Below, piece after piece: positions 1,098 through 20,270 of a stretch of 64,000 nt of DNA (the first letter of the stretch is position 1; every line of letters starts with the position of its first letter). The notes under the pieces were generated by a model, which was not told the origin of the DNA, made no database searches, and saw only the letters and a list, made by a program, of their open reading frames with translations. Origin of the DNA: Planctomycetota bacterium (GTDB taxonomy: Bacteria > Planctomycetota > Phycisphaerae > Phycisphaerales > UBA1924); NCBI GenBank assembly GCA_013285505.1, contig CP053450.1, forward strand, positions 1,906,796 through 1,970,795. Reading direction: 5' to 3'. The position numbers were made by a program, and so were the translations under genes.

Positions 1098-1138
1098 TGC
1101 GAGGAGACATCACGATAAGGCAGAGGCCGCAAGCCCGA

Positions 1139-2083: not shown

Positions 2084-2713
2084 GATCTTGTCCTTTTCTG
2101 ACAGCGGTGAACCGATACCCGGAGGCCGCCCCTCCCAACGCGGGAGCGCCGACCCGTTCCGGTTGTGTCCTCGGCCGTACAGGCACCGCAACCCGAGATA
2201 TGGACCCCCCGGCACGCCCCGCCGCCCAAAACGCGTCGTTTCTGCGCGTCGTCCGCCGGCCGCCCATCCTCGAAGCCAGCGGTGCCCGCCGGCCTTCCTG
2301 CCACAAACGTCGACAAGCCCCGTCCCCGCCCCGAGTCAAACCCTGCGGATTGTGACGAATGCACGATCTCCGGAACTCACCTGCATCCCGCACCGTCCAA
2401 CACCGGTACATCTCAGAGACCGGGACACACCCGGGCGCACAACCGCAGCCCGACAACCCCCACCCAGCCCAACCGGCCGGCGAGGGCCTCCCGAAACGGA
2501 TGTTTGGGAATTGAACGGAATCAAACCCCTTCCAATCCCCTCACCCGTCTGATACAGTAAAGACCGAGGCGGCAGCAGGCCGTCGCGGCCGACGACCGAT
2601 GTGTGACGATGTGTGACAAAGACGCGTGCGACTCCGCCAAAAGGCGAAAACACGCCCCGCACCCGCCGCGACCCAGCCGCACCGCCCCAGGCAACGCCCC
2701 AAGGAGGCCGCTC
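2084..2713. other. Divergent intergenic region, 630 bp
   Basis: No convincing gene. It holds the leaders of the two diverging genes. A 10-bp tandem direct repeat GATGTGTGAC occupies 2598-2607 and 2608-2617, just downstream of a weak promoter candidate, and could be an operator. AAGGAGG at 2701-2707 is the ribosome site of the next gene. Confidence 0.5.
2530..2558 (+). promoter_or_regulatory. Weak sigma-70-like promoter candidate
   Basis: TTCCAA (2530-2535), a 17-bp spacer, then TACAGT (2553-2558), about 155 bp before the exported-protein start at 2714. Both boxes are poor matches, so this is only a candidate. Confidence 0.3.
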
Positions 2714-3670
2714 ATGCAGGCAACAACCCGCCGCCAAAATCCCGCATTCCGCACCGGCCTGCTCATCGCCGCCGCCGGCGCCCTCTTCGTAGGCACCCTC
2801 CCCGCGGCCTCCGCCCAGACCCTCTCCAGCACCGCCGCCGTCGCCCCGAGCCCCAACCAGCTCAAGCGCGAAAACCTCATCAAAATGCAGCGGCAGATGC
2901 CAGACATCAACTTCGACGAATACCGCCTCGAAGACGTCATGAACTTCATCGGCGAGATCACCGGAGCCGACCTCGAACCCATGTGGATCGACGACTCCGC
3001 CATCGACGGCCTCGACCCCGACGCCCTCATCTCCCTCAAGGCCAAACGAGTCTCCGCCCTCCGCCTCCTCGAAATGGTCCTCGAAAAAGCCGAAGTCGGC
3101 TCCGCGGCATTCTCCGGCGGCTACACCTGGCAGATGACCGAATGGGGCACCATCGAGTGCGGCCCGAAGGAACTCCTCGCCCGCCGCGCACGACTCGAGA
3201 TCTACCCCATCACCGACCTCCTCTGGGAAATCCCCGACTACGCCGAAGCACCCGAGATCGACCTCCAGACCGTCCTCCAAAGCTCCCAAGGCGGCGGCGG
3301 CGGACAGAGCCCCTTCCAGGACGCCCAGGACGACGACCTCGACCGAACCACGCTCGAAGAACGCTCCGTCGAACTCATCGAAATCATCGAAGCACTCGTC
3401 GAGCCCGAGACATGGCTCTCCGGCGGCGGCACAGCCTCCATCCGCTACTTCCAGGGCAGCCTCCTCGTCCGCGGCCCCGACTACCTCCACCGCAACCTCG
3501 GCGGCTACTCCTGGTGGCCCAGCACCGACACCTCCTCCCAAGTCGTCAACGGCCGCCGCTACGTCAGCATCGGCGTCGACACCGGAATCTCCACCGTCGA
3601 AGGCTTCACCAACCAGCCCGTCACCGGCGTGGTCGGTGGCGGCGGCGGCAACCCCGGCGGCGGTGGGTGA
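2714..3670 (+). CDS. Exported protein with STN/secretin-N-like segment
   Basis: 318 residues. Residues 1-34 are a signal peptide ending ASA. Residues about 55-115 (FDEYRLEDVMNFIGEITGAD, then LLEMVLEKA) have the alternating pattern of the short STN/secretin N domain found in secretins and planctomycete exported proteins, which places it in the envelope. The middle is Gly/Gln/Asp-rich and the tail ends in a run of glycines. The start is chosen at the ATG preceded by AAGGAGG at 2701; the in-frame start 111 bp earlier has no such site. The stop overlaps the next gene by 4 bp, so the LuxR-type regulator downstream is probably co-translated. Function unknown. Confidence 0.75.
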   Translation: MQATTRRQNPAFRTGLLIAAAGALFVGTLPAASAQTLSSTAAVAPSPNQLKRENLIKMQRQMPDINFDEYRLEDVMNFIGEITGADLEPMWIDDSAIDGLDPDALISLKAKRVSALRLLEMVLEKAEVGSAAFSGGYTWQMTEWGTIECGPKELLARRARLEIYPITDLLWEIPDYAEAPEIDLQTVLQSSQGGGGGQSPFQDAQDDDLDRTTLEERSVELIEIIEALVEPETWLSGGGTASIRYFQGSLLVRGPDYLHRNLGGYSWWPSTDTSSQVVNGRRYVSIGVDTGISTVEGFTNQPVTGVVGGGGGNPGGGG

Positions 3671-4455
3671 GCAGGTCCGACAGACCAAGGGCAAAGGACA
3701 TCCGAGGCGCCTATCGACTCGTCAGTGACTGCCGAGATGTAGGTGCCGACCTCATCGCGTGGCAGGAACGCCTCCTCCGCGGCCTCTGCGACACCGTCCG
3801 CGCCCAGGTCGGCATCAGCGGCAACATGCGCAGCTTCGGCACCGGCGACGCCGAATCACTCGGCTCCGTCCGCATCGGATGGCGCGACAAACAGGCCGAG
3901 CAACTCTGGCTCGACTACGCCACCAACATCCCCGTAGAACGCACCCCCGAATACCCCGCCCTCATCGGCGCCGAAGACCGACTCGTCACCCGCACCCGCG
4001 ACCAGCTCTGGGGACGCGAGGCCTGGTACCGCTCCCGCACCTTCAACGAACGCCACAAACGCGTCGGCATCGACGACTACATCATCTCCATCCAGCGCCT
4101 CCCCTTCGCCGACCTCTGGCACTCACTCTGGATCCACCGCGCCGCCGACCAGCCACCCTTCACCCGCCGCGAGTGGTGGCTCGTCCGCTGCGTCCACGAA
4201 GAAATCGGCCGCCTCCTCGGAAACGCCCTCGCCTCCGCCGCCGAGCCAAAGCTCTCCGACCTCACCCCCAGGCAACGCGACGTCCTCGACGCCGTCCTCG
4301 AAGGCCTCGCCGAAAAAGACGCCGCGGCCGCCCTCGGCGTCGGCCGGGCCACAGTCCACGAGCACATCCTCGCCATCTACCGCCACTACGGCGTCTCCTC
4401 CCGGGCCGAACTCATGGCCCTCTTCGTCGGCCGCGAACCTCCAACCCGCGCCTGA
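3667..4455 (+). CDS. LuxR-type HTH transcriptional regulator
   Basis: 262 residues from a GTG that overlaps the previous stop (GTGA). The C-terminal 64 residues (from 199) are a LuxR/GerE helix-turn-helix: LTPRQRDVLD, then AAALGVGRATVHEHI. Residues 1-195 match no receiver or autoinducer domain that I recognise and may be a planctomycete-specific sensor. The 4-bp overlap couples it to the exported STN-like protein, so it may regulate or respond to that protein. An alternative is a later in-frame start, as no strong ribosome site precedes the GTG. Confidence 0.75.
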   Translation: MSRSDRPRAKDIRGAYRLVSDCRDVGADLIAWQERLLRGLCDTVRAQVGISGNMRSFGTGDAESLGSVRIGWRDKQAEQLWLDYATNIPVERTPEYPALIGAEDRLVTRTRDQLWGREAWYRSRTFNERHKRVGIDDYIISIQRLPFADLWHSLWIHRAADQPPFTRREWWLVRCVHEEIGRLLGNALASAAEPKLSDLTPRQRDVLDAVLEGLAEKDAAAALGVGRATVHEHILAIYRHYGVSSRAELMALFVGREPPTRA

Positions 4456-4608
4456 AGCCCCCCCGCACGCCCCCAGACCCCCATTCCTCGCCCAACCCAC
4501 CAATCAGTGGGCCCCCCCGCCCCCTCCACCGCGGATCATGTGTGCAGCAACCCCCGGGGTTCCGACCGACACCGGCCCCCCGCACGCACACCCAGCAAGG
4601 AGAACCAC

Positions 4609-5556
4609 ATGCACCGCTCACTCGCAAGGACCGCCCTCACCGCCCTCGCCCTCTCCGCCGTAGCCACAACCGCGGCCAGCGCCGACGACCTCTACCTCGC
4701 CGGAAACTTCGGCCAGATCTGGCACCTCGACACCGACACCGGCGTCGTCGACAACCCCGTCTCCTGCGGCGGCAACGTCGAGGGCCTCGTCCTCCAGGGG
4801 CGTGACGTCCTCGCCGCCAGCTCCGACGGCACCGTCTACCGCATCGACCTCGACACCGGCTTCTTCAAGAGCACCTTCCCCGTCGTCGGCAGCCCCCTCT
4901 CGATGACCCGCTGGGGCAACACCCTCTACATCACCGACGAGATCGGCGGCATCCAGTGGTACCAGGCCGACGACGGCTCCCTCATCGACACCTACTACAT
5001 CAACGATCCGCAGCAGGCCTCCGTCCTCTTCGGCGGCACCATCTTCACCGGCAGCTGGAGCACCTTCGTCTACAAGTCCCCCATCGGCGGCATGGACTTC
5101 CAGTTCTTCACCGCCTGCGGCGGCACCGTCAACTCCATGACCACCGACGGCACCGACCTGCTCATCGGCTCCCGCGAGGGCACCATCTACGTCTTCGACG
5201 CCGTCACCGGCGGCTACCGCGTCACCTACCCCGTCGCCTCCGACTGCGTCGGCATGGCCTACACCGACGGCAGCCTCTTCATCGCCGGCTCCGACGGCAT
5301 CGTCCACCGCATGAACCTCGCCAACGGCAACATCGAACGCACCTACGACACCGGACTCGACCTCACCGCCATGGCCGGAGCCGACGCCTGCGCCGCCGAC
5401 TTCAACACCGACGGCGAGATCTCCATCCTCGACTTCCTCGCCTTCCTCAACGCCTGGAACGACCAGGACAACACCGCCGACATGGACGGCAACGGCGTCA
5501 TCAACACCCAGGACTTCCTCGTCTTCCTCAACGCCTTCACCGCCGGCTGCGAATGA
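4609..5556 (+). CDS. Secreted beta-propeller-like protein with GC-type dockerin tail
   Basis: 315 residues. Signal peptide 1-24 (ends ASA). Residues 25-260 consist of repeats of the type LYLAGNFGQIWHLDTDTG and LLIGSREGTIYVFDAVTGG, as in PQQ/WD-like propellers. Residues 261-315 form two EF-hand-like calcium loops (DFNTDGEISILD, DMDGNGVINTQD), each followed by a helix FLAFLNAW or FLVFLNAF, and the protein ends AGCE. AAGGAG at 4598-4603 supports the start. The tail matches three other proteins in this window and is likely a surface-sorting or assembly tag. Ligand unknown. Confidence 0.8.
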   Translation: MHRSLARTALTALALSAVATTAASADDLYLAGNFGQIWHLDTDTGVVDNPVSCGGNVEGLVLQGRDVLAASSDGTVYRIDLDTGFFKSTFPVVGSPLSMTRWGNTLYITDEIGGIQWYQADDGSLIDTYYINDPQQASVLFGGTIFTGSWSTFVYKSPIGGMDFQFFTACGGTVNSMTTDGTDLLIGSREGTIYVFDAVTGGYRVTYPVASDCVGMAYTDGSLFIAGSDGIVHRMNLANGNIERTYDTGLDLTAMAGADACAADFNTDGEISILDFLAFLNAWNDQDNTADMDGNGVINTQDFLVFLNAFTAGCE

Positions 5557-5562
5557 GCCGGT

Positions 5563-5628
5563 AGCACAACGACTTCGATGCACCCAGCGCAGCCAACGGC
5601 GCCCCGGTTACCGGGGCGTCGTTGTGCT
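5563..5628. terminator. Nested inverted repeat between convergent genes
   Basis: An outer 11-bp perfect stem (AGCACAACGAC at 5563-5573 with GTCGTTGTGCT at 5618-5628) encloses an inner 8-bp stem (CGCCCCGG / CCGGGGCG, 5600-5618). It sits between the ends of the dockerin protein gene and the PAC2 gene. No clear T-run follows on either strand, so it could block readthrough or be a short palindromic repeat. Confidence 0.5.
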
Positions 5629-5658
5629 GGAGTCATGCAGAATGCGTCCCGCCCCGCG

Positions 5659-6658
5659 TCAGTCCGACGAGCGGAACAGATCAAGAAACCGGTCCTCATA
5701 CTCATCGAACACGCCGAGCCGATCCAGCTCACTCTTCAGGTCAAACGCCACGTCCCGGTCGGCAGCCGCGGCATGGAACCGCCGCTCGATCTCCGCCCGA
5801 ACCTCCGCGTCCAGCCCGTGGTCGTCCTCCTCGTCAGCCGTCGGACCACCCCCGCCCGAGTCCACATCGTCCGGGCCCAGATCCTCCGAGCCGTCATCCC
5901 CATCGGCATCGAACAGCTCGTCGCTCTCCGAGGCCGACTCCTGCGCCCGCCTCCACCTGCTCGAGCATCCGCAGCATCGCCTCCTCACCCGCGTCCACAC
6001 GCTGGTTCAGCTCCGTAAAGTCGATATCGATACCCGTGACATCGCCGAACGCCGACAACACCGACCGCGCCGCCCGGAAGTTCGGCACCCGGGCCGCGTA
6101 GAACGGGATCTCCGCAAGCAGGCACGCCCCGTCAAGCTCCCGCTCGCCGGCCGCGCCCAGCATCAGGCCGTTCAGCCCGCCGATCCGCCCGTCCGAAGCA
6201 GGGTTGATCCCAAACTCCGACAGCTCTTCCAGCAGGTTGCTCGTCGTCACCGCCGCAGTCACTCCCGGCTCCTCGCTCGGATGGATCGCCGACGCCAGCG
6301 AAGCAAACGTGAACACCCGATCGATCTGCTCATCGCGCAACTGATCGAGCAAGTCGTGCACGAACGCGTACCCGTTCCGCGACGGCTGCGCCTCCGCCAG
6401 AAACACAATCAGCGGCCGCCCGATATGGTCCTCGGGCGTGCGGAACAACAGCCCCCGCGGCAGGTGCGGACGCTCGACCACACCGGAGCGCACCCCGACG
6501 TGGGTCAGGTCAACATGGTTGATCAGCGGCACCACGCCCATCGGCTTGAGACCAAGCTTGCGGACGAGATAGCCCCCGGCGATCGCAGCCACATTGCCCA
6601 TGCCGGGCCACGCGGCGACAAGATACGGACGTTCTGCGTTTGGTGTACTTTCAGTCAT
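5659..6658 (-). CDS. PAC2-family protein (one frameshift)
   Basis: The PAC2 fold is shared with proteasome-assembly chaperones and with bacterial ATP-grasp-associated proteins of uncertain role. From MTESTPNAERPYLVAAWPGMGN the sequence reads as PAC2 for about 230 residues (GYLVRKLGLKPMG, RPLIVFLAEAQPS, LNGLMLGAAG). A one-base surplus near 5947 (GGCGGGCGC for GGCGGCGC) then moves the reading frame. The next frame continues smoothly as an acidic linker (SDELFDADGDD) and a C-terminal helix ending FRSSD. The span is 1000 bp, one more than a multiple of three. Repaired length is 332 residues. The break is most likely an artefact. Confidence 0.8.
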
Positions 6659-6802
6659 GATGCAGGGACAAGTGCGAGCCGCGTGCCAAACCACCGCACC
6701 GACCGCAAACCCTCGAAACGGCCGTAAACACCGCCTCCGACCGCCCTTGCACCGCCCGCCTGCCGGTTTGGCAGGCAGAGTCGCCCCGACGAACCCACGC
6801 CC

Positions 6803-9254
6803 CTAATCCCCCAGCAACGCCCGCCACCGATCACCGTTCTCGATATCGCCCCCGCGGTCGTACACCGCCACCAGCCACCGCACCACCTGCTGTGTCTGCG
6901 GATGATCGTTCCCGTACGTCCCATCGAGATGCCGGTACGACTCCAGCAGACGCGGCAGCGCCTCCGCGTCCCGGTCGTGCTCGGCCAGCGCAATCCCGTA
7001 CGACTTGATCACAGCCCCCGCCAGCGGGTGCGGGTCGGGCAACTGCCCGACAATCCGCGGCACCACATCCGCCCAGATCGGCTCGGCCTCCGGAAAGCGC
7101 CCCAACGCCGAATACGTCCGCGCCAGATTCTGCCGCGCCAGCAGCGCATTCAGGTGCCCCTCGCCGAGCACGCGCGCCGCCGATTCGGCGATCTCCCGCG
7201 TGATCGGCAACGCCGCCGCAAAGTCGCCCCGAGCCGCCAGCGTCGCACCCAGCGAGTTCAGCGACTTCATGTACGTCGGATGATCCGGGTCCATCGTCAG
7301 CTTCGCCTCGGCGATCGCTGACTGCAGCAGCGCGAGAGCGTCGTCGGCCCGCCCCGCCGCGTCGTACGCCTGCGAGAGCGCCGTGCGGTAGTCCAGCAGC
7401 GTTCCCGCGTCGGCCTCCGGCCAGCGCTCATACCGCGGCAGCGCCTCCTCAAACAACTCGATCGCCCGGTCGATCTCGTCAAACTCCATCGCCACCATCG
7501 CGTGGCTTATCATCACCCGAAGCGTCGCAGGGTGCGTCGGGCCCGCGTGCGTACGCAGCCCCGCGAGCGACCGCTCACGAAGCGCCGCCGCCTCCTCGTA
7601 CCGGGTGTCATCCAGCAGCAGCCGCGCATGGATGTTCATCATCTCGAGCGTCAACGGGTCCTCTTCACCCAGCGTCGCCTCGTACAACTCCAGAGACCGG
7701 GCGCTGTGATGCAGCGCACGAGACTGATCGTTCAGCCGCCGGTACACACTCCCCAACGCCCTGTGAATGAAAGCCGCCGCCTCCTGCTGCTCGGCCAACT
7801 CCGTGTCCACGCGCCCCGCCGCGTCGTCCAGCGCCTCGACGATCGTCACGTCACGCCCGAGAGATACCTCCGGTGCCGCCGCGAGAAGCAGGTGCGTGGT
7901 GTAGAACTCGTTGACCGCCTGCGCCGCCGCCGCCCGCGCCTGTGCCTCGGCGCGAGCCTCACCGGCCTCGGTGACGGCGTCTTGGAGCGAGGTGTTCGCC
8001 CCCGCCAGCCGCACCGCCAGCACCGTGGACACCACCGCGCCGCACACCAGCAACACCAGCGCCACCGACGACACCGCCACCAGCCCCCGGTGCCGCTTGG
8101 CAAACTTCCGCACCAGATACACCCGGCTCGGCGGCCGCGCCACGATCGGCTCGTCGGCAAGGAACCGCCGCACATCGCTCGCAAACTCCGCGATGCTCTG
8201 GTACCGGCGCTCCCGGTCCTTCTCGAGCGACTTGGCGATGATCGTCTCGACATCGCCGCGGCACTCCCGGTTGGTCGCGCTCAGCCGGCTCGGCTCCTCC
8301 TGCCTGATCACCCGCACCGCCTCCGGGATCAGCTTGTTCCGCAGGTCATACGGCAACGAGCCCGCGATCAGCTCATACGCCACCACACCCAGCGCGTACA
8401 CATCGCTCCGCGTGTCGAGCTGCCCCGGGTCGCCCTCCACCTGCTCGGGCGACATGTACGGCAGCGTCCCGATCAGCTGCCCGACCTCCGTCCGCATCGT
8501 CGTCATCTGCAGATCAGGATCGACCGCCCGCGCCACGCCGAAGTCCAGAATCTTCGGCTGTCCGTCCGGCGCGATCAGGATGTTCCCCGGCTTCAGGTCG
8601 CGGTGGATCACACCCTTCTGGTGCGCATGGTGCACCGCGTCGGCGATCCGCGCGATCAGCTCGAGCCGGCCCCGCAGGTCCAGCCCCGGGTCCTTGGCCA
8701 CCTCGTGCAGCGACCGCCCGTGCACCAGCTCCATCGCAAAGTACGGGATCGGACCGTCCGGCGAAGGCACGATCCCCGCGTCGAAGATCTGCGCGATCCC
8801 CGGGTGCTGCAGCCGCGCCAGCAGCTGGATCTCGTACTCAAACCGCCGCCGCATCGCCGGCTGCGTAAACGACGACCGCAACACCTTGAGCCGCCACCAG
8901 CCGACGGGGGTGCGCACGCTCGGCCTCGTACACGATCCCCATCCCGCCGCGTCCCAACTCCCGAACGATCCGGTATCCCGGCACGCTCGGCAGCGCCACC
9001 GCCCCCTCGGCCCTGCCCGCACTCCCTGCATCACCCGCCGGCCCGCTCGGCGGGAGCGTCTCATCCTCCGTCGATGTCGCGTACTCCAGCACGCTCTCGC
9101 TGCTGGCGTGGGCCGCGAGCAGCGCCTCGACCTCCCGCCGCAGCGGCCCGTTGCGCGCGCACGCACCGTCGAGGTACTCCCCGCGCTCATCCGGCGCCAG
9201 GCCCACCGCCTCGGTAAACACCCGCTGCAACTCATCCCACCGCGCATCATCCAT
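6803..9254 (-). CDS. Membrane Ser/Thr protein kinase with TPR region (one frameshift)
   Basis: Repaired length is 816 residues. N-terminal part MDDARWDELQRVF..., with a GRGGMGIVY glycine loop near 107, then a one-base surplus near 8891 (GTGGCGGCTC for GTGGCGCTC) exactly at VALK, which carries the ATP-binding Lys. After the shift: HRDLKPGN near 217, DFGVAR and GTLPYMSPEQ, so an intact Hanks-type kinase. A membrane helix follows at about 388-408, then roughly ten TPR-like repeats to the C-terminus, expected outside the cytoplasm. The start overlaps the ECF sigma gene by 8 bp. This sigma/kinase pairing is common in planctomycetes and suggests that the kinase controls that sigma factor or its regulon. 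Confidence 0.88.
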
Positions 9255-9873
9255 CGCCGCGCTCCCCCGCCGAACCCGGCTCTCCCGCGTCGCCGGGCTC
9301 CGAGGACATCTCGCGGAACAGCCACGCCCGGGCGAAGTTCCACTCGTTCTTGACCGTCGTCACCGAGAGATCGAGCACCCGCGCTGTCTGCGCGATGCTC
9401 AGCCCCGCGAAGTACCGCAGCATCACGATCTGCGCCTTCCGCCCATCGACACGCTCCAGCTTCTCGATCGCCTCGTGCAGGTCGAGCAGCCGCTCCGGAT
9501 CCGCGATCGGCGCCGGCACATCCCGACCCTCCAGCGAACGCGGCCGCACCCCGCCCCCGCGCTTCACCGCCCGCCGCGCACGGGCGTGATCGATCAGGAT
9601 CTGCCGCATCGCCCGCGCCGCCGCACCGAAGAAATGCGCCCGATTCTCCCACGCCATCTCCCGCCCGGCAAACAGCCGCAGGTACACCTCGTGCACCAGC
9701 ACCGTCGTCTGGAGCGTGCCCCGCACCTCGTGCCGCATCTCCTGCCGGGCCATCCGCCGCAACTCCTGGTAGACACGGGGGATCCAGTCGTCGGGCGACT
9801 GCTCGCGCACCGGTGTCGTGTCGGTCGCCATCGAGTTGTCGGGTCGGGCGTCGGCCAAGGCGTGCTCCATCAC
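9247..9873 (-). CDS. ECF-type RNA polymerase sigma factor (TIGR02999-like)
   Basis: 208 residues. Region 2 (VYQELRRMARQEMRHE, LVHEVYLRL, NRAHFFGAAARAMRQIL) and region 4 (RYFAGLSIAQTARVLDLS, TVKNEWNFARAWLFREM) match the planctomycete/acidobacterial ECF group whose region 2 contains HFFGAAARAMR. It is upstream of, and overlaps by 8 bp, the membrane kinase gene, so the two form an operon. A promoter candidate lies at 9901-9930. A second ATG 42 bp in (MATDTTPV) is an alternative start. No anti-sigma factor is adjacent; the kinase may fill that role. Confidence 0.9.
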   Translation of the reverse strand: MMEHALADARPDNSMATDTTPVREQSPDDWIPRVYQELRRMARQEMRHEVRGTLQTTVLVHEVYLRLFAGREMAWENRAHFFGAAARAMRQILIDHARARRAVKRGGGVRPRSLEGRDVPAPIADPERLLDLHEAIEKLERVDGRKAQIVMLRYFAGLSIAQTARVLDLSVTTVKNEWNFARAWLFREMSSEPGDAGEPGSAGERGDG

Positions 9874-9900
9874 AGTCGATCCCCCGGTGTGCAGAGTCGG

Positions 9901-9930
9901 AGTCTACTGACCGAGCCGCCAAGGAAACAA
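9901..9930 (-). promoter_or_regulatory. Promoter candidate for the sigma/kinase operon
   Basis: On the minus strand: TTGTTT (9925-9930), an 18-bp spacer and TAGACT (9901-9906), about 28 bp upstream of the sigma factor start. The same TAGACT -10 box recurs elsewhere in the window. Confidence 0.45.
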
Positions 9931-10077
9931 GACATTCTCGACCAATCACTGACCACCCCAACGCACTCTTCCGCATGTCACTCCAGAGAGAGACGAGCGA
10001 CCACCCACCGGTACGTCCGGCCCGCTATCGGAGCGCGCCGGCCGGGGGGTGTCACTCGCAATCGGGAGATCCGTTTC

Positions 10078-10818
10078 ATGAATGTGCAGACACCAAACGC
10101 CCTCGCCGTCCTGGCGTGCGCCGCGGCCGCCGCCTCGGCCGACATCATCCAGGTCAGCTACGGCTCGCTCACCGGCGACTACGTCGAGACCTTCGAGACC
10201 TTCGACGCCGGAGCCCCGTTCGTCGGCGCGCCAACTACGACGGCGTCGTCGCCAACCCCTTCGGCCTCTCGATCGCCGAACGCTTCGACGGCCAGTCCGT
10301 CTCCGACGGCACCAACCAGAGCGGCGGCGGCACCCACGATGTCATCAGCGGCTCGCCCGACGGCCCGCTCTCGCTCGCCCTCGGCCGCGACGCAGAACCT
10401 CGTCATCGGCGACACCACCCCCGTCGGTGGCACGGGCCACGCCATCAGCGGCCTCAGCTCGCCCGGCTGGCCCAACTTCCAGGCCATCGGCGAGGGTGCC
10501 GCCACGTTCCTCTTCGATGTCGGCCAGCCCGACGTCGGGTTCACGACCTTCGGCGCGCTCGACGGGGGCGATCTGCGGGCCGACTTCTACGACCGCGGCG
10601 GCGGGCTGCTGGGCTCGGTCACGATCGACGAGATCCGTGACGGCGGGTTCGGGTTTGCGACCTCGGACGGCTCGGCGTCGATTGCGGGGATGGTCATCAC
10701 CAACACCGAGGCCGAGGGCATCTCGTACGACAACGTCTGGTACCACACGGTGCCGACGCCGGGCTCGCTGGCCGTGCTGGCGTGCGGGGGTGCCGCGGCG
10801 ATTCGCCGCCGGCGCTGA
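10078..10818 (+). CDS. PEP-CTERM-type exported protein (two frameshifts)
   Basis: Signal peptide MNVQTPNALAVLACAAAAASA, then a beta-rich body. The frame moves near 10230 (one base short) and returns near 10392 (one base extra). Between them the frame reads NYDGVVANPFGLSIAERFDG, and after it NLVIGDTTPVGGTGHAISG. The C-terminus is a PEP-CTERM sorting signal: PTPGS, a hydrophobic helix (LAVLACGGAAAI) and RRRR. Such proteins are cleaved and attached or released by an exosortase, which is not in this window. A GGGAG lies upstream of the start. The GC-skew switch falls inside this gene. Body function unknown. Confidence 0.75.
   Translation: MNVQTPNALAVLACAAAAASADIIQVSYGSLTGDYVETFETFDAGAPFVGAPTTTASSPTPSASRSPNASTASPSPTAPTRAAAAPTMSSAARPTARSRSPSAATQNLVIGDTTPVGGTGHAISGLSSPGWPNFQAIGEGAATFLFDVGQPDVGFTTFGALDGGDLRADFYDRGGGLLGSVTIDEIRDGGFGFATSDGSASIAGMVITNTEAEGISYDNVWYHTVPTPGSLAVLACGGAAAIRRRR
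10500..10620. other. GC-skew sign change
   Basis: Left of about 10.56 kb the plus strand is C-rich under both plus-strand genes (3.2 kb: 27 C, 11 G in 60 bases) and minus-strand genes (9.6 kb: 29 C, 13 G). Right of it the plus strand is G-rich under both (16.0 kb: 32 G, 11 C; 18.3 kb: 26 G, 18 C). The line at 10501 has C over G (24 to 17) and the next has G over C (27 to 19). Confidence 0.7.
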
Positions 10819-10894
10819 CGCGCTCGGAGCGACACATCCGATCGGGACAGGGGAGAAGGGTCACGATCCGGCTGGCACTCCTGCCAGGTGAGTC

Positions 10895-11407
10895 TCAGCC
10901 CCCCGAGGAGCCGGCGTCTTCGCCGGCTTCTTGGTTTGCGCTGTCGGTGTCTGGCTGATTCTCCGCGTCGCGCTCGGCTTCCAGGTTGGCCTTCTCCTCC
11001 TTGTCGTCGCCGGAGATCTTGAGGAAGGGGATTGTCGAGTCGATGTTGTTGATGGTCGTGCGCAGGGAGGCGAGGTGCTTCTCGATCTGTGTCAGCGGGC
11101 CCTGCAGGGCCGTGACTGAGCCGTCGAGCTTGGTCAGCTTGCCGTCGATGGTGGCGAGCTGGGCGTTGACGCTCTCGAGGACCTCGAGCTTGGTGTTCAG
11201 TTCGACGAGCTGGCCCTCTACCGTCGTGAGTTGCGCGTCCACCTTGGTGAGCAGCGCGTTGGCCTTCTCGACCTTGGCGAAGCTGTCGTTGATCGAGGTC
11301 AGGTTGTCGTTGGCCAGCCCGATCCCGTCGTTGATGTCCTGGACGATGCACCCGGGCGCGAGGACGAGTATCGGGAGAATGAGCAGGGGCGTGACGAATC
11401 GATTCAT
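10895..11407 (-). CDS. Coiled-coil lipoprotein
   Basis: 170 residues. Lipobox LAPGC with lipidated Cys20 after a hydrophobic signal. Residues 30-140 are a long regular coiled coil with repeated segments such as LTKVDAQLTTVEGQLVELN and LATIDGKLTKLDG. The tail is acidic and ends in Gly-Gly. It is probably a membrane-anchored periplasmic rod or spacer protein. No family recognised. Convergent with the PEP-CTERM gene, which ends 76 bp before it. Confidence 0.75.
   Translation of the reverse strand: MNRFVTPLLILPILVLAPGCIVQDINDGIGLANDNLTSINDSFAKVEKANALLTKVDAQLTTVEGQLVELNTKLEVLESVNAQLATIDGKLTKLDGSVTALQGPLTQIEKHLASLRTTINNIDSTIPFLKISGDDKEEKANLEAERDAENQPDTDSANQEAGEDAGSSGG
10910..10935 (+). terminator. 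Terminator of the PEP-CTERM gene
   Basis: GCCGGCG (10910-10916) and CGCCGGC (10921-10927) form a 7-bp stem with a 4-nt loop, followed by TTCTTGGTTT. It lies within the 3' end of the convergent lipoprotein gene. Confidence 0.6.
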
Positions 11408-11674
11408 GGGGAAACCTCCGGCGCAAGCGTAGGTCCGCATCGCGAACGGGCGTGACGCGTGCGCGAGCGGGGCTCGGCGAGAACGTCGGGTGTGCGCCCG
11501 ATATTCGCGGTTTTCTCGGGCCCGGGCGGTGCGCGGCGGCTTGTGTGCGCCGTGACGACGCGGGCACGCGGTTTTCTTGAGAATCGGGTAGGACCGCTGG
11601 TTCTCTCCGGCTACCGTGAAACCTCGTGGGTCGGTAGAGACAAATACGCCCCATTTTCCCAGAGGAGAGTTTGC

Positions 11675-13069
11675 ATGCGTTACAAGACCGATCACCGGCT
11701 GTTTCTGCGCGCGCACGTCGCTGCGACGATGCTCGCGATGACCTCGATTGCGGCGGCGCAGAACGCGGGTGAGTGGACGCTGTTCTGCCCCATCGGCAGC
11801 ACAGAGACTCAGCTGGTCGATCTCGACAACACCGTCGTGCAGACGTGGGAGAGCGAGTTCACGCCGGGGGCCTCGGTGTATCTGGTCGAGGGCGGCGCGA
11901 TCCTGCGGCCGGCGAACGATCCGAGCGCGGGGGACTTTGGCGGTCCGGGGCTTGGTGGGAGGATCGAGCGGATCGCGTGGGACGGGACCGTCGAGTGGAG
12001 TTATCTCGCGGCGGGGCCGGACTATGTGCAGCACCACGATATCGAGCTGTTGCCCAACGGCAACGTGCTGGCGATCGTGTGGGAGCGGCACACGGCTGCG
12101 GACGCGATCGCGAATGGGCGTGACCCGGCGCGGGTGGGTGCGGAGGTCTGGTCGGAGACGGTGATCGAGATCGAGCCGTCCGGTCCGGACGGGGGCACGA
12201 TCGTGTGGCAGTGGCGGGTGTGGGACCATCTGGTGCAGGATTTCGATCCGAACCTGCCGAACTACGGGGTGATCTCGGAGAATCCGGGCCGGATCGACAT
12301 CAACGCCGGGCCGGAGGTGCCGGACTGGCTGCACTTCAACGCGCTGGATTACAACGCGGAGCTTGACCAGATCGTGCTCAGCTGTTTCACGCTCAGCGAG
12401 ATCTACATCATCTCGCACGACCCGAACGACAGCGGCGATCTGCTGTACCGCTGGGGCAATCCGCAGGTCTACGGGCGGGGCGGTCCGGATGATCAGAAGC
12501 TCTTCAATCAGCATGATCCGGAGTGGATTCCCGAGGGTCTTCCGGGTGCGGGCAACATCACGATCTTCAACAACGGCAACCCGCGCGGTTTTTCATCGAC
12601 CGAGGAGATCCGGCCGCCGGTCAGGGTTGACGGCACGTACAACATCAGCATGAGCGGCCCCTACGGGCCCGAGGGCTTCACGTCTTCGAGGGACGAGATC
12701 GACGGGGTGCCGTTCTTCTCGAGCTTCATGTCGGGTGTGCAGCGGATGGCCAACGGCAACTCGCTGGTGTGTGTCTCGCTGGAGAACCGCATCGTGGAGA
12801 TCGACCCGGGTGGCAACTCGGTGTGGAGCATCGCGACGGCCGGGCCCGCGTTCCGAGGGACGCGGTTTGCCAAGCGTGACGCGAGGCTGGAGGGTCTGCT
12901 GTGGTGCGTTGCGGACTTCAACGAGGACGACGTGGTGAACACGCAGGACGTGCTGGCGTTCCTCAACGCGTGGACGGCGGACGAGGGGTCGGCCGACTTC
13001 AACGGCGACGGCTCGGTGGACACGCTGGATGTGCTGGCGTTCCTGAACGCGTGGAGTAGTGGCTGCTGA
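11675..13069 (+). CDS. Arylsulfotransferase-like secreted propeller with GC-type dockerin tail
   Basis: 464 residues. AGAGGAGAG (11661-11669) supports the start. Signal peptide ends AAAQ. The body resembles the ASST family: HHDIELLPNGNVLAIV, WLHFNALDYNAELDQIVLS, LYRWGNPQVYG and MANGNSLVCVS, the repeated His-containing blades that hold the sulfuryl-transfer His in true enzymes. I cannot confirm every catalytic residue, so it may be a binding protein of that fold. Residues about 410-464 are two EF-hand-like loops (DFNEDDVVNTQD, DFNGDGSVDTLD), each followed by VLAFLNAW; the protein ends SSGC. Confidence 0.82.
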   Translation: MRYKTDHRLFLRAHVAATMLAMTSIAAAQNAGEWTLFCPIGSTETQLVDLDNTVVQTWESEFTPGASVYLVEGGAILRPANDPSAGDFGGPGLGGRIERIAWDGTVEWSYLAAGPDYVQHHDIELLPNGNVLAIVWERHTAADAIANGRDPARVGAEVWSETVIEIEPSGPDGGTIVWQWRVWDHLVQDFDPNLPNYGVISENPGRIDINAGPEVPDWLHFNALDYNAELDQIVLSCFTLSEIYIISHDPNDSGDLLYRWGNPQVYGRGGPDDQKLFNQHDPEWIPEGLPGAGNITIFNNGNPRGFSSTEEIRPPVRVDGTYNISMSGPYGPEGFTSSRDEIDGVPFFSSFMSGVQRMANGNSLVCVSLENRIVEIDPGGNSVWSIATAGPAFRGTRFAKRDARLEGLLWCVADFNEDDVVNTQDVLAFLNAWTADEGSADFNGDGSVDTLDVLAFLNAWSSGC

Positions 13070-13569
13070 GCGGTTTGGCCGGTGGAGCCGGCCGTTGGAC
13101 TTGTCCATTGACACCGCGGGGCGCCGGAACGCCCCGCGGTGTTGTTTTTGCTGTGGGCCAGGCGGGTGAGCTGGGCTGCGGCTTTGCGGGTGATCTCGCG
13201 GTGGCGGGCCTGGATCTGGGGTGGGAGCGGTCGGGCGTCGGCGGGGTCGTGGGCCATGAGGTGGCGGAGGGTCTGGATGGCGATCGGTGCTGCGGCGGTG
13301 GCGGCGCGTCGGGACTGCAGCTCGGCCTGCGCGGTGAGTCGGTCGAGGAGGAGGTTGAAGTCGGCGGACTCGAGGATGTCGAGGAGTTGTGAGAGCGAGA
13401 TGTCGTGGAGGGCTGCGAGATCGGTGAGCGGGAGGTCGGCGCGGAGGTAGTCGGGGATGAGGGCTTCGGGGGTGACGGTGGGTGTGCGCGTGGTGGTGGG
13501 AGTGATCGCGGGCGGCGGGTGCTCGTGATGCGGGCGCGGTGTGGTGGTCGGTGTGATTGTGTGCGGCAT
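12661..13569 (-). CDS. Hypothetical protein; C-terminal part doubtful
   Basis: Starts MPHTITPTTTPRP behind a good ribosome site (AGGAAGGGG). Residues 30-130 look like a real helical protein: LIPDYLRADLPLTDLAALHD, then SLSQLLDILESADFNLLLDR and ITRKAAAQLTRLAHSKNN; the first resembles a helix-turn-helix recognition region. From about residue 138 the frame runs through the terminator and then antisense to the dockerin end of the ASST-like gene, which is unlikely to be native. A lost stop or a frameshift near 13145 would explain this, but all three minus frames stay open there. No family recognised. Confidence 0.45.
   Translation of the reverse strand: MPHTITPTTTPRPHHEHPPPAITPTTTRTPTVTPEALIPDYLRADLPLTDLAALHDISLSQLLDILESADFNLLLDRLTAQAELQSRRAATAAAPIAIQTLRHLMAHDPADARPLPPQIQARHREITRKAAAQLTRLAHSKNNTAGRSGAPRCQWTSPTAGSTGQTAQQPLLHAFRNASTSSVSTEPSPLKSADPSSAVHALRNASTSCVFTTSSSLKSATHHSRPSSLASRLANRVPRNAGPAVAMLHTELPPGSISTMRFSSETHTSELPLAIRCTPDMKLEKNGTPSISSLEDVKPSGP
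13111..13149 (+). terminator. Strong rho-independent terminator
   Basis: A 13-bp perfect stem (ACACCGCGGGGCG / CGCCCCGCGGTGT) with a 6-nt loop (CCGGAA) is followed by TGTTTTTG. It ends the arylsulfotransferase-like gene. Confidence 0.92.
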
Positions 13570-13761
13570 CGGGGTCCCCTTCCTGCTCTATTTTGGGGTT
13601 GGGGTGGGGAGGAGGGAAGTGGCTTTTGGGGTAGGTGCATGAAGTTGCGCGCGCTGGTGGTGGATCGGGGGGAGATTTGTGGTTTTGGGGGCGGAGGGGG
13701 GCGCTCGGGCTTGCGGTGATCGGGGTGCTGTTTGCGTCGGTGGTGGGTGGTGTGGTGGGGA

Positions 13762-13782
13762 GCCCACGCTGGCGCGTTGGGC
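13762..13782. repeat. REP-like palindrome
   Basis: GCCCA-CGCTGGCGCGT-TGGGC: 5-bp complementary ends around a GCGC-containing core. Similar GCCCA...TGGGC intergenic elements are known to me from planctomycetes; membership here is inferred. Confidence 0.45.
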
Positions 13783-13819
13783 CTCTTTGTGGTTGGGATG
13801 GTGTCGGAGGGTGTGGAGG

Positions 13820-13842
13820 CACGGGTGGACGAGCCACCCGTG
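13820..13842. repeat. Perfect 9-bp inverted repeat, REP-like
   Basis: CACGGGTGG (13820-13828), loop ACGAG, CCACCCGTG (13834-13842), continuing into GGCAC on both sides. No T-run follows, so it is more likely a dispersed palindromic element than a terminator. Confidence 0.6.
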
Positions 13843-13889
13843 GCACGGGGTGTCGGGCTGTGGTGGTGTGTGGCTCCTAAACTGTGGGG

Positions 13890-15191
13890 ATGGACGTGCG
13901 TTCTGGACATGCTGGTGGTGGTGCGGGCTCGGGCCGGGGCAAGGTGCTTGTGGCGATGTCGGGCGGGGTGGACAGCTCGGTGGCTGCGGCGCTGTTGGTG
14001 CGTGAGGGGTACGAGGTGATCGGCTGCTTCATGCGGCTGGGGTCGGTGGGGGAGAGTCTCGGGGTGGTGGAGGAGGCGTGCGCGGTTGGAGAGCGCGGGG
14101 GCGCGGATAGCGCGGGGGAGGGGGACGGACCCGCTCCGGCCTCGAAGACTCGGCCACCTCTGCCGCGGGGCGCGGGGGAGGAGGGGCCGACGATCAGGCA
14201 TCGGGGGTGTTGCTCGGTGTCGGATGCTGCGGACGCGCGGCTGGTGGCGGCGGAGCTGGGGATCCCGTTTTATGTGTGCAACTTCAAGAAGGACTTCGGT
14301 CGGATCATCGACTACTTCGTGGATTCGTACGCGGTTGGGCAGACACCGAACCCGTGTGTGCGGTGCAACGACTGGCTGAAGTTCGGCAAGCTGCACGATT
14401 ATGCGCGGGAGTTCGGGTGTGACTTCGTCGCGTCGGGGCACTACGCGAGGATCGTGACGGGGGAGGACGGCGGTCCGGCGCTGGCGCGGGGCGTGGACTT
14501 TGAGAAGGATCAGAGCTACGTGTTGTTTGGTGTGGGGCGGGAGCAGCTGGGGTCGATGCTGCTGCCGATCGGGGAGATGCGCAAGGCGGATGTGCGGGCG
14601 TTGGCCGAAGAGCTGGGGCTGCCGGTCTTTGACAAGCCTGACTCGCAGGAGATCTGCTTTGTGCCGGACGATGACTATGCGGGGTTGGTGGAGCGGCGGC
14701 GTCCGGAGCTTGCGGAGGCGGCGCGCGGGCGCGGCGAGATCGTGGACACGGCGGGGAACGTGCTGGGCGAGCACGGGGGGCAGCACCGGTTCACGATCGG
14801 GCAGCGCCGGAAGATCGGGGTGGCGCTGGGGCATCCGATCTATGTGGTGGACCGCGATCCTGTGAAGAACCGGGTGACGGTGGGGGAGTCGGACGATCTG
14901 TTGGTGGGGTCGTGCGAGGTGGGGGAGGCGAACTGGCTTTCGTCGGTGGGGGCGGGGATCCCGGATGAAGGTGTGGCGGTGACGGTTCAGTACCGGGCGC
15001 ACGGGGAGCCGGTGGGGGCGCGGGTGACGGTGCTGCCTGATGCGGCGGAGCCGGGGCCGTCGGGGCGGCCCGGGCGGTTTGCGGTTCGGTTTGGCGAGGC
15101 GCAGCGGGCGGTGGCTCCGGGGCAGGCGCTGGTGGTGTATGACGGGTCGGGGCGTGTGCTTGGCGGTGGGTGGGTGGTGGGGACGGCGTAG
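13890..15191 (+). CDS. mnmA: tRNA-specific 2-thiouridylase
   Basis: Inserts sulfur at U34 of Lys, Glu and Gln tRNAs, using ATP and a persulfide relay. 433 residues. PP-loop SGGVDSS at 24-30; NPCVRCN with Cys156 and SQEICF carry the two catalytic cysteines; SGHYAR and DQSYVLF are also family motifs. Residues about 51-103 are a low-complexity Gly/Glu/Pro insert (contains PPLPRGAGEEGP) not seen in typical MnmA of 360-380 residues; the frame stays open through it. No Shine-Dalgarno is evident. TAAACT lies at 13878-13883, 6 nt before the ATG, so the mRNA may be leaderless. An in-frame GTG 6 bp upstream is the alternative start. Confidence 0.95.
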   Translation: MDVRSGHAGGGAGSGRGKVLVAMSGGVDSSVAAALLVREGYEVIGCFMRLGSVGESLGVVEEACAVGERGGADSAGEGDGPAPASKTRPPLPRGAGEEGPTIRHRGCCSVSDAADARLVAAELGIPFYVCNFKKDFGRIIDYFVDSYAVGQTPNPCVRCNDWLKFGKLHDYAREFGCDFVASGHYARIVTGEDGGPALARGVDFEKDQSYVLFGVGREQLGSMLLPIGEMRKADVRALAEELGLPVFDKPDSQEICFVPDDDYAGLVERRRPELAEAARGRGEIVDTAGNVLGEHGGQHRFTIGQRRKIGVALGHPIYVVDRDPVKNRVTVGESDDLLVGSCEVGEANWLSSVGAGIPDEGVAVTVQYRAHGEPVGARVTVLPDAAEPGPSGRPGRFAVRFGEAQRAVAPGQALVVYDGSGRVLGGGWVVGTA

Positions 15192-15251
15192 CGGTCGGGA
15201 CGCGGCTTGCGCGGGCGTAACGCGGGTTTCTCGCGGCGGTTCCCTCAAGGT

Positions 15252-15280
15252 TTGGAATTCTGAAGAGATTCTGGTATGCT
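15252..15280 (+). promoter_or_regulatory. Sigma-70-like promoter of the halogenase-like gene
   Basis: TTGGAA (15252-15257), a 17-bp spacer and TATGCT (15275-15280), about 97 bp before the GTG start. Confidence 0.6.
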
Positions 15281-15376
15281 GGCTGGGTCCGGGTCTTCCT
15301 GGCCGCAGCGGTGACACTCGTTTTCGGCGTCCTGCCGACCGCTGCTTGGCGTAGTTGCGTTTGAAGGGGTATCCAC

Positions 15377-17149
15377 GTGGGTGTTGGCGCGCGCGCATGC
15401 GACTATGACGTGGTGATCGTGGGAGGGGGCCCGGCGGGGACCACTATCGCGACGCTTTTGAAGAAGTACGACCCGGCGATCAGCGTGCTGATCATCGAGA
15501 AGGCGAAGTTTCCGAGGGAGCATGTCGGCGAGAGCCAGCTGCCGGGGATCGGCGCGGTGCTTGATGAGATGGGCGTGTGGGACAAGATGGAGGCTGCGGA
15601 GTTCCCGATCAAGATCGGGGCGACGTATCGGTGGGGGAACTCGCCGGAGTTGTGGGACTTTGAGTTCATCCCGTTGAGCATCTACAAGGACGAGGGGCGG
15701 CCGGGCAAGTTTGAGGGTCAGCGTCGGATGACGGCGTGGCAGGTGGACCGGGCGATCTACGACGACATCCTGCTGCGGCACGCCGAGTCGGTGGGCGTCG
15801 AGGTGTGGGAGGAGACGGCGGTGCGGGGGGCGGAGGTCGAGGGCGACCGGATCCGGTCGTTGACGCTGGACGACGGGCGGACGGTGACTGGTGAGTATGT
15901 GGTGGATGCATCGGGTCATGTGGGGGTGCTGCGGCGGGCGCTGGGTGTGGGGATCACCGAGCCGAGCCGTCTGCGCAACATGGCGGTGTGGGACTATTGG
16001 GACAACGCGGAGTGGGCGGTGGAGATCGGCACGGGGGCGACGCGGGTGCAGGTGTTGAGCCTTGCGGGGGGGTGGATCTGGTTCATCCCGCTGGGGCCGA
16101 CGCGGACGAGCATCGGGTTTGTGTGTCCGGTGGAGTATTACAAGCAGCGGAAACTGAGCCCGGCGGAGTTGTACGCGGAGGCGGTGAAGGCCGAGCCTCG
16201 GGTGGCGTCGCTGACGAGGAACGCCACACGGGACGGCGATGTGAAGACGACGAAGGACTGGTCGTTTGTCGCGGATCGGCTGGCGGGCGGGAACTGGTTC
16301 TTGGCGGGCGAGGCCGCGGGGTTTGCGGACCCGATCCTGGCGGGCGGGCTGACGCTTGCGCACACGGGCGGGCGTGAGGTGGCGTACACGATATTGGCGA
16401 TGCGGCGCAAGGAGCACGAGGAGGCGTGGCTTCGGGAGATGTACGCCGAGCGGCAGAAGAAGCGGATCGAGCAGTACATCCGGTTTGCGGACTACTGGTA
16501 TTGCGCGAACGGGCAGTTTACGGATCTGGAGGATCTGACGGCGGAGATCGCGAAGGAGGCGGGGCTGGACATGTCGCCGAAGCAGGCGTTCCGGTGGCTG
16601 AGCCTCGGGGGGTTTGCGCACGAGGATTTCTCGTTCCCGGGGCTTGGGGGGTTGGATCTGCTGGCGGTGAAGGAAGTGACGAAGGTGTTTTCTGGTGAGG
16701 GGGAGGACCGGAGCGGGTGGGAGATCAACAAGTACAACACGTTCCGGCTGGATCTTTCGGGGACGAAGAAGCAGCAGATGCCGGTGTATGCGCAGGGCAA
16801 GATCATGCAGGCCGAGTGCTATGTGCGTGACGGGCGGTGGCTGCCGAACGTGGGGTTGTACGGCGTGCTGGTGGGTCTGCTGCGGCGGCACAACGATCTG
16901 GGCTCGATCCGGAAGGGGCTGGAGGCCGCGGCGCGGAAGCAGTCGGCGCGGTCGGGCCAGGGGGCGGGTTTTTTCGTGACGCAGGGTGTTTCGACTCTGG
17001 AGACGATGCTCGTCGAGGGGTGGGTGAAGGGGTCGGTGGACTCGAAGCGGAAGACGATGGTCTACACGCCGATCGTGGAGTCGAACTTCCACAAGAACAG
17101 CGACGCGCTGCCGGGGGCGGAGCGGGCGGCGGATCATCCGGCGTTGTGA
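15377..17149 (+). CDS. FAD-dependent oxidoreductase, flavin-halogenase-like
   Basis: 590 residues from GTG with GAAGGGG upstream. N-terminal dinucleotide fold YDVVIVGGGPAG (GGGPAG 16-21), then EHVGESQLPGIG, the position where flavin-dependent halogenases have GES. WIWFIP at 233-238 matches the halogenase WxWxIP motif, and GEAAGFADPILAGGL is the second FAD-binding segment. The family chlorinates or brominates aromatic substrates; related members are plain monooxygenases or geranylgeranyl-reductase-like enzymes. The C-terminal 200 residues are a helical extension. No biosynthetic genes lie nearby, so the substrate cannot be inferred. The 3' end overlaps the convergent methyltransferase gene by 16 bp. 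Confidence 0.8.
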   Translation: MGVGARACDYDVVIVGGGPAGTTIATLLKKYDPAISVLIIEKAKFPREHVGESQLPGIGAVLDEMGVWDKMEAAEFPIKIGATYRWGNSPELWDFEFIPLSIYKDEGRPGKFEGQRRMTAWQVDRAIYDDILLRHAESVGVEVWEETAVRGAEVEGDRIRSLTLDDGRTVTGEYVVDASGHVGVLRRALGVGITEPSRLRNMAVWDYWDNAEWAVEIGTGATRVQVLSLAGGWIWFIPLGPTRTSIGFVCPVEYYKQRKLSPAELYAEAVKAEPRVASLTRNATRDGDVKTTKDWSFVADRLAGGNWFLAGEAAGFADPILAGGLTLAHTGGREVAYTILAMRRKEHEEAWLREMYAERQKKRIEQYIRFADYWYCANGQFTDLEDLTAEIAKEAGLDMSPKQAFRWLSLGGFAHEDFSFPGLGGLDLLAVKEVTKVFSGEGEDRSGWEINKYNTFRLDLSGTKKQQMPVYAQGKIMQAECYVRDGRWLPNVGLYGVLVGLLRRHNDLGSIRKGLEAAARKQSARSGQGAGFFVTQGVSTLETMLVEGWVKGSVDSKRKTMVYTPIVESNFHKNSDALPGAERAADHPAL

Positions 17150-18099
17150 GCGTGGGGGGGGGTTAGCGGGCTTGGGGGGTGCTCGGGCGGCGCTTGGGCG
17201 GGGTGGGGCTGCGCTTTGGCGTCGGGCTTTTGCATGATGAAGAGGTAGTTGAAGCCGCGCTCGAAGGTGTTGGCCTGGAGCGACTGTTGCTGACGGTTGG
17301 GCTGCGCGAGTTTGGCGTTGCGTCGGACGACGGCGATGATGTCGATGGGTTTGAAGTGGCGTCGGAGGATGGCGAAGAGTTCGAAGCCGATGGGCATGAA
17401 CTCGGAGTGGTCGTCTGCGCGGGGTGTGCCGCGGGTGGTGCGGGCGCGGGGGTTGGCTTCGTGGCGTGAGTCGCTGACGTAGAGGCCGAGGTGGCGTCCG
17501 GGTTTGAGGACGCGGGCGAGTTCGGTGATGACCTGGGCCATGGCGCGGTAGTAGGCCTGTCCGCCGTCGCGGCCGCCGGCGTCGAGCTTGCCGATGCAGG
17601 CGGGGTCGTCGGAGTAGTTGACGTGTGTGGAGTAGGGCGGGTCGATGAAGACGAGGTCGCAGGAGTTGTTGTCGAGGGGGAGTTTGCGGGCGTCGGCGGG
17701 TTTGATGTCTTTGCGGGAGGGGTTGAGGTCGAAGCCGATGCCTGTGCGGCGGAGGTCGGTGCAGACGTCGAGGGTGGTGCCGCTGCCGCACATGGGATCG
17801 AGGACGGTGTCGTTGGGTGCGGTGTAGCGCTGGAGGAGCTGCCAGATGATCCAGCTCGGGGTTGCGCCGATGTAGTTGGGGTTGCCCTGGACGGTGGGGG
17901 CGTTGGGGTTGGTGGGGAGGTAGTGCTGGCTTGGGTATTCCCAGAGTGTGGAGGTGAAGAGCTCGAGGGCGGGCTTTTTGAAGGTGGTGCCCTTGGGGGT
18001 GTTGGGGCGGAACTTGGGGCGGTTGGAGCTGCCGCGGTCTCCGGAGGGTTGGGGTTGGCGCGGGGGGCGGGGGTCGTTGTGGTTTGGTTGGCGGGGCAT
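17134..18099 (-). CDS. Orphan DNA methyltransferase (N4-cytosine/N6-adenine type)
   Basis: 321 residues. SAM motif I DPMCGSGTT at 101-109 and catalytic motif IV DPPY at 153-156, with GIGFDLNPSRKDI between them; VLKPGRHLGLYVSD and a final RGFNYLFIMQK strand complete the fold. DPPY indicates exocyclic amino methylation (N6-A or N4-C). It starts 5 bp after the nrnA stop, so it is the third gene of a ribF-nrnA-methyltransferase operon. No restriction endonuclease is adjacent. An RNA rather than DNA substrate remains possible for this fold. Sequence specificity cannot be read from the protein. Confidence 0.8.
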   Translation of the reverse strand: MPRQPNHNDPRPPRQPQPSGDRGSSNRPKFRPNTPKGTTFKKPALELFTSTLWEYPSQHYLPTNPNAPTVQGNPNYIGATPSWIIWQLLQRYTAPNDTVLDPMCGSGTTLDVCTDLRRTGIGFDLNPSRKDIKPADARKLPLDNNSCDLVFIDPPYSTHVNYSDDPACIGKLDAGGRDGGQAYYRAMAQVITELARVLKPGRHLGLYVSDSRHEANPRARTTRGTPRADDHSEFMPIGFELFAILRRHFKPIDIIAVVRRNAKLAQPNRQQQSLQANTFERGFNYLFIMQKPDAKAQPHPAQAPPEHPPSPLTPPHAHNAG

Positions 18100-18104
18100 G
18101 GTGG

Positions 18105-20142: not shown

Positions 20143-20270
20143 ACGGGTGGAGGGTAGTGCGGCCGGGGCTGTTGAGCGGCTGGGATGAATCCTATAGTCG
20201 CGGCCCTGCCGGACGCGGCCGGATGAGACTCTGGTGCGGCGGTGTCCCGCTCGTTTGGAAGGACTATGCG

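Follow-up and report, generated by a model that had tools for sequence, protein, structure and literature searches.

The GC skew of the plus strand changes abruptly from C-rich to G-rich at about 10.5 kb of the window, i.e. the whole stretch of 64,000 nucleotides that was analysed (G000:C1:1906796-1970795; genome G000 is a MAG with an estimated completeness of 86%, present as a single contig of 4,123,950 bases), and we have found that this flip belongs to a series of flips along the chromosome, each of which lies next to a gene of one family, assigned on homology to the terminase small subunit (TerS). Since at least 11 such flips exist, the window flip is one among equivalents and not the chromosome's single origin. 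The reading that we propose, and to which we give about even credence, is that the flip is one of 12-14 TerS-marked sites of short-range outward replication, where local replication resembling that of a gene transfer agent (GTA) would feed packaging or cutting of DNA by the terminase large subunit (TerL).

Across the flip, which is located at 1917.3 kb of the chromosome, GC skew rises from about -0.2 to +0.3/+0.4, while AT skew flips in the opposite direction; the maximum-likelihood (ML) changepoint is 382 lnL units better than no change, and the cumulative GC-skew minimum of the window is found at 10551. The original prediction had placed a sign flip near 10.56 kb, with a cumulative-skew minimum at this point and a PEP-CTERM gene spanning it, and the analysis agrees on all three (Table 1). 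It had also seen no DnaA boxes nearby; indeed, no DnaA box (TTATCCACA, with up to one mismatch) occurs within 3 kb of the flip. The PEP-CTERM-type open reading frame (ORF) had no match in Pfam; 64 bases of its C-terminal region are 78% identical to G000:C1:321595-321658, near the flip at 317 kb. A large ORF on the minus strand (13002-15398) was rejected as a spurious antisense frame.

Table 1. Coordinates, within the window, of the GC-skew flip and of the features that surround it.
Feature	Position	Strand	Basis or remark
GC-skew flip point, C-rich to G-rich	10530..11020 (2-lnL interval), best 10560	.	ML changepoint and cumulative minimum
C-rich left arm	1..10550	.	extends about 37 kb leftward of the flip, past the window edge
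G-rich right arm	10560..62000	.	fades to zero about 51 kb from the flip
Ser/Thr protein kinase with TPR repeats	6803..9976	-	left of the flip; bystander
PEP-CTERM-type secreted protein ORF	10082..10891	+	spans the flip; bystander
Arylsulfotransferase with C-terminal dockerin	11459..13069	+	between the TerS-like gene and the flip; bystander
Orphan terminase-small-subunit-like gene (HTH and helical hairpin)	13141..13569	-	profile match G000:1919936-1920364, translation, structure model
Conserved box of about 20 bp, GCGYAANNTYRTSSAMCT, upstream of the TerS-like gene	13633..13650	-	putative promoter/operator or recognition box

Along the chromosome, skew was surveyed over 2.24 Mb, sampled and then tiled, i.e. 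54% of the 4.12 Mb. The examined DNA contains 11 strong C-to-G flips (at 316.9, 1258.6, 1582.8, 1657.4, 1917.3, 2479.8, 2586.1, 2870.1, 3247.3, 3364.9 and 3750.7-3754.6 kb), with upward jumps of 0.31-0.58 between 8-kb flanks, and no comparable G-to-C flip: the largest downward jump is -0.22, and downward changes are gradual, which gives the profile the shape of a sawtooth. As to the case, named beforehand, in which the flip is a local fluctuation and the global minimum is located at another place, the skew over this 54% of the chromosome has no single global minimum, which agrees with it in part, but the flip is no mere fluctuation. Averaged over the 11 sites in the orientation of the associated gene, skew is -0.28 just before the flip and +0.2 just after it, and reaches about zero at 40-48 kb on both sides. 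The extent per side is mostly 35-66 kb where the side is well covered, with shorter extents of 11-22 kb on three measured sides; the next site is 74-562 kb away, and one gap of 295 kb between sites has a mean skew of 0.001 (sd 0.035). Weaker upward jumps (0.19-0.24), at about 628, 2715, 2806 and 3822 kb, where a TerS gene was not detected, may represent former sites that have decayed, or noise. Shared k-mers at the flip points did not exceed chance, and no sequence motif was found there; there is likewise no AT-rich dip and no enrichment of DnaA boxes at the flips.

The origin of the asymmetry is indicated by four-fold-degenerate sites: within 10 kb of the flips, their coding-strand GC skew is +0.53 in genes that are co-directional with outward-moving forks and -0.67 in opposed genes, the asymmetry falling toward baseline past 45 kb, with T-A skew moving alongside. 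Because these sites show the asymmetry on both gene strands, the skew is attributed to strand-specific mutation and not to gene direction; the earlier observation that skew persists under genes of either strand is extended to the surveyed sites of this genome. The leading strand is G+T-rich, the usual sign for replication, which fits the signature of outward DNA synthesis, and the flips possess the asymmetry that characterises a bidirectional replication origin, i.e. a leading/lagging asymmetry that switches sign independently of gene strand.

Bacteria are taught to have one origin per chromosome, and a lone flip of such sign is normally read as a single oriC, an inversion endpoint or an assembly mis-join. 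We give next to no credence to these readings at 10.56 kb, where the site lies inside one 4.12-Mb contig and is one of eleven equivalent flips, which have the same direction throughout, are associated with a single gene family and recur in another genus. The original prediction had offered three options: two of them, an inversion endpoint and a mis-join, find no support in flips that are all C-to-G when strong, decay over about 45 kb, and share a gene family and its orientation in two genera; the third, an origin without dnaA, comes closest and is partly supported: it agrees with the sign, with a G+T-rich leading strand and with a skew that does not depend on gene strand, but the site is not the sole chromosomal origin, given at least 11 equivalent flips. 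The elements of a canonical DnaA-dependent oriC (DnaA boxes, an AT-rich element and a nearby dnaA) were not found at the window flip. DnaA-domain genes are located at 368 and 1741 kb: the 368-kb dnaA locus has five near-consensus DnaA boxes within 6 kb and no skew flip, and a weak jump of 0.16 occurs at 1744.6 kb, near the 1741-kb gene. If the ordinary origin is at 368 kb, it leaves little asymmetry. Our literature search found no paper on GC skew and replication origins in Phycisphaerae.

The gene that accompanies the flips was found by comparing the first six flip regions, where the copies share a core of about 110 residues; no other conserved gene stood out at the sites, many of the other shared matches being antisense frames of this gene or low-complexity sequence. 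At all 11 strong flips, a TerS paralogue is located 0.9-4.4 kb away, with the flip always on the 3' side of the gene. In the window, the gene begins with an ATG at 13569 and its frame is open to a stop at 12661, the 3' end being directed toward the flip; the frame overlaps the opposing arylsulfotransferase ORF, and the true C-terminus is uncertain. The link is predictive, as gene position has foretold unseen flips: the copies at 2867, 3244, 3367 and 3755 kb were located in DNA still unread when they served as predictions, and each of the four proved to have a flip. The flip at 1258.6 kb was seen before the profile search revealed its copy at 1257 kb; this search added the copies at 1257 and 315 kb, both adjoining known flips, and another at 741 kb, where a flip begins at the edge of the sampled DNA. 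For six copies in a contiguous stretch, the mean jump is 0.476, which random placement reached in 0 of 100000 trials; circular shifting matched it in 38 of 100000, an expected result, given that the smallest shifts do not leave the sites. The first six associations, which came from a search in the vicinity of flips, are not independent; the independent tests are the four predicted sites, the test in a second genus (G017) and the sign test over several genomes.

In G017, 18 of the 19 TerS copies lie at upward flips, 17 of these 18 with the flip on the 3' side (the exceptions are one copy without an upward flip and one with the flip on the 5' side), and the control region has none. In further genomes, orphan TerS loci are C-rich in gene orientation in 23 of 23 cases, and TerS loci within the operon described below in 0 of 10. 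In a draft genome of the same genus as G000 (G003), many TerS copies are located at contig ends (C10, C28, C54, C56, C15, C53, C59, C71), as if the breaks at TerS genes reflected repeat copies or coverage changes.

The box upstream of the window gene is shared by the copies of this genome: GCGYAANNTYRTSSAMCT is matched exactly at 13 places in 4.12 Mb, of which 12 precede TerS copies and one belongs to a truncated copy. At the truncated copy (G000:C1:1249450, L308), the box and the first 25 or so codons resemble the 1257-kb copy, and no skew flip occurs there, as would be expected if an intact TerS gene matters. The box was not found in relatives and is specific to this species; by inspection, the G017 copies have a different upstream sequence. 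A further copy (G000:C1:1107129-1107515) appears frame-shifted and degenerate, being matched by the profile in three overlapping pieces, with a box at 1107791 that has one mismatch.

The genes next to the TerS sites are ordinary cellular genes that differ from site to site, and no phage or plasmid replication genes, as would mark an integrated prophage or plasmid, were found among them; by eye, the neighbours of o1659 are like a DinB-family protein and a flavin oxidoreductase. Short tandem repeats (PEAQAR/RASEG) follow or flank many TerS genes of this genome and are possibly dispersed planctomycete repeats. Neighbours that are not conserved between sites are also what would be seen if the TerS-like gene were a mobile or homing single gene, which inserts beside pre-existing replication starts without being their cause; in G017, the copies have in common the TerS gene alone (about 460 bp), with 83-97% DNA identity among most copies and unrelated flanks. 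This account is quite unlikely in our judgement, because the copies have a species-specific upstream box and a constant orientation, the truncated copy with the box lacks a flip, and the identity in G017 could be explained by gene conversion; moreover, the copies of this genome, with 27-64% identity to the window copy, are old.

The identity of the gene is suggested by its context in relatives. In other families of the order, a single homologue is located in a conserved operon that consists of an HTH regulator, a GNAT-like gene, a ParB-like gene, the TerS-like gene and, as its last gene, the terminase large subunit (PHROG, E 9e-12). When a profile was made from the orphan copies alone, it selected the gene that immediately precedes terL in 30 of the 80 listed loci (8202 ORFs). 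Because of this homology and operon context, we assign the gene family to the terminase small subunit, the window copy itself being an orphan. The structure model of the TerS-like protein (mean pLDDT 89.8) has three short helices (34-66), followed by helices 69-106 and 117-140; its VIA-align scores against small terminases are middling (2ao9 Z 6.3, 4xvn 5.1, 6v1i 5.0) and its Foldseek fold matches fall below significance, a comparison of predicted structure that is compatible with the assignment and not decisive. No curated TerS family of Pfam or PHROG matched at usable E-values; TerS families diverge strongly, and a match in a library is not in itself what defines a TerS.

The large subunit has a different distribution. 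We have found 209 terL loci, and the 80 listed are almost all from Phycisphaerae/Planctomycetota by title; terL is single-copy in 49 of 61 relatives' genomes, its flanking genes are conserved, and the terminase is complete, with both catalytic regions kept. In about 45 terL loci (REARRANGEMENT), the GNAT-like gene is close to terL, and ParB and TerS are gone; other states also occur, two with TerS and no ParB and one with ParB and no detected TerS. In G000, terL is located at 3937 kb, and the profile search found no TerS copy there. The terL loci were considered as flip sites and rejected, since most of them have no flip; the flips therefore follow TerS and not TerL. A terminase that is present, single-copy and vertically inherited is a GTA trait, but the accompanying capsid, portal and tail genes were not found: portal (PF04860) and HK97 capsid (PF05065) have no match in G000, and no capsid, portal or tail genes were recognised near terL. 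The system is not classed here as a GTA, and we treat packaging as a hypothesis because of the missing portal and HK97 capsid genes.

The mechanism that we propose would begin with a vertically inherited, phage-derived terminase operon as the source of TerS; in the lineage with orphan TerS (derived Phycisphaerae), the operon would have kept TerL and lost TerS and ParB, and TerS would have left the operon and multiplied round the chromosome. From each of 12-14 sites, marked by an orphan TerS gene located 1-4 kb off and pointing toward the site, DNA synthesis would proceed outward to either side for about 45 kb each, frequently enough, and in DNA that is inherited, to imprint the leading/lagging mutational asymmetry; most likely as part of a GTA-like system, this local (run-off) replication would provide the DNA for cutting or packaging by the single TerL under the direction of the local TerS. 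The flips, their fixed range, their one-to-one link with TerS genes in two genera, the two states of the operon in relatives and the shared upstream box are observed, whereas we infer replication as the cause of the asymmetry, a role for TerS at the site and the packaging of DNA; taken together, the analysis suggests that a domesticated packaging or gene-transfer system is probably behind the TerS sites. Passages of PMC7947584 describe TerS as normally determining the packaging start, so dispersed TerS genes could disperse packaging starts. Our opinion is evenly balanced on the wider claim that TerS has been dispersed to a dozen or more sites, each a fixed-range bidirectional replication start, and that these form an amplification-and-transfer or multi-origin system across the whole chromosome for which no counterpart has been described in bacteria.

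A limited-range process, i.e. run-off replication, fits better than full multi-origin replication because the asymmetry stops short of the next site. In the latter case, each site would be a full origin with its own initiator-like HTH protein, and the sites together would replicate the whole chromosome; an origin would have this sign, a G+T-rich leading strand and this bidirectionality, each site has one dedicated DNA-binding gene, and the dnaA locus at 368 kb, despite its boxes, lacks a flip. DnaA-independent multi-origin chromosomes are known in some cyanobacteria, with skew profiles described as irregular (PMC7198777); there too, no single V-shaped skew is seen and the dnaA locus is not the main flip, whereas the flips found here are discrete, each with a member of one gene family as its mark, and of limited range. 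We regard full multi-origin replication as unlikely: forks that reached their neighbours would skew the whole gap and flip in mid-gap, but the asymmetry mostly ends 35-66 kb from a site, be the gap 74 or 562 kb long, and the 295-kb gap has almost no mean skew, which only dispersed initiation in the gaps could reconcile; in addition, operon context points to a terminase subunit and not to a known initiator.

The retention of a complete terminase without recognised capsid genes nearby, or PF04860 and PF05065 matches in G000, together with the fixed range per site, would also suit a process in which TerS and TerL direct cutting at the sites and recombinational repair then entails strand-asymmetric mutagenesis, with no dedicated replication or packaging. 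The strand logic of 5'-to-3' resection with cytosine deamination is established: the other strand is exposed, which by our reasoning should produce the opposite sign, and we consider this explanation very improbable.

Many discrete origin-type sites in one bacterial chromosome, each with a dedicated phage-derived DNA-binding gene, are evident here from sequence alone. If the sites are amplification and packaging starts, gene transfer would be distributed over the chromosome, with many of its regions open to horizontal exchange; if the sites serve as replication origins, the chromosome would be a marked bacterial multi-origin chromosome. In both cases, the strand asymmetry serves as a readable map, and the question can be tested by ordinary sequencing depth.

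Among known systems, the run-off replication of the Bartonella GTA (BaGTA) is bidirectional, starts from a phage-derived site and is coupled to a gene transfer agent (PMC2697382). The likeness is that local bidirectional replication at a phage-derived chromosomal site feeds a vertically inherited, phage-derived packaging machine, both steps being proposed in the present case; the differences are that Bartonella has one amplification origin, in contrast to 12-14 sites here, each with its own TerS gene and a fixed range of about 45 kb, that no capsid genes were found here (PF04860, PF05065; surroundings of terL), and that amplification is here a proposal. In pac phages, pac is often located in or near terS. 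Lateral transduction by such phages with in situ replication (S. aureus phages, P22; PMC8575938, PMC8575950) is similar in its TerS-defined start in the chromosome and in an effect that fades with distance; here, in contrast, there is no prophage at the sites, the sites are many and the effect extends to both sides. The Rhodobacter GTA (RcGTA) is likewise a domesticated TerS-TerL pair in a cellular lineage, but passages of PMC7947584 report no discrete packaging start sites and a TerS gene that adjoins terL, and those passages, on GTAs and terminases, do not describe dispersed TerS-marked sites; the TerS genes considered here are scattered, in association with discrete sites. Discrete upward jumps of this kind have parallels outside bacteria. 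The multiple origins of archaea lie beside orc1/cdc6 genes, i.e. a DNA-binding gene beside the origin, and mammalian genomes have N-shaped skew domains of sawtooth shape; the differences here are that the host is a bacterium, the gene is a terminase subunit and not Orc1/Cdc6, and the asymmetry stops at about 45 kb and does not span to the next origin.

Some minor observations concern the terL loci of relatives. A search for TerL in viral contigs found nothing, a weak test with patterns from one protein. The terL loci L248, L269, L280 and L251, all from named genomes, have strong upward jumps (0.33-0.45) with no orphan TerS found nearby, and a divergent TerS may have been missed. One Cyanobacteria-labelled contig (L245) carries a terL locus of Phycisphaerae type and probably stems from a MAG that was mis-binned or mislabelled. 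The terminase operon begins, in most terL loci, with a gene upstream of the GNAT-like one, whose product is a conserved HTH protein resembling sigma region 4 and may regulate the operon.
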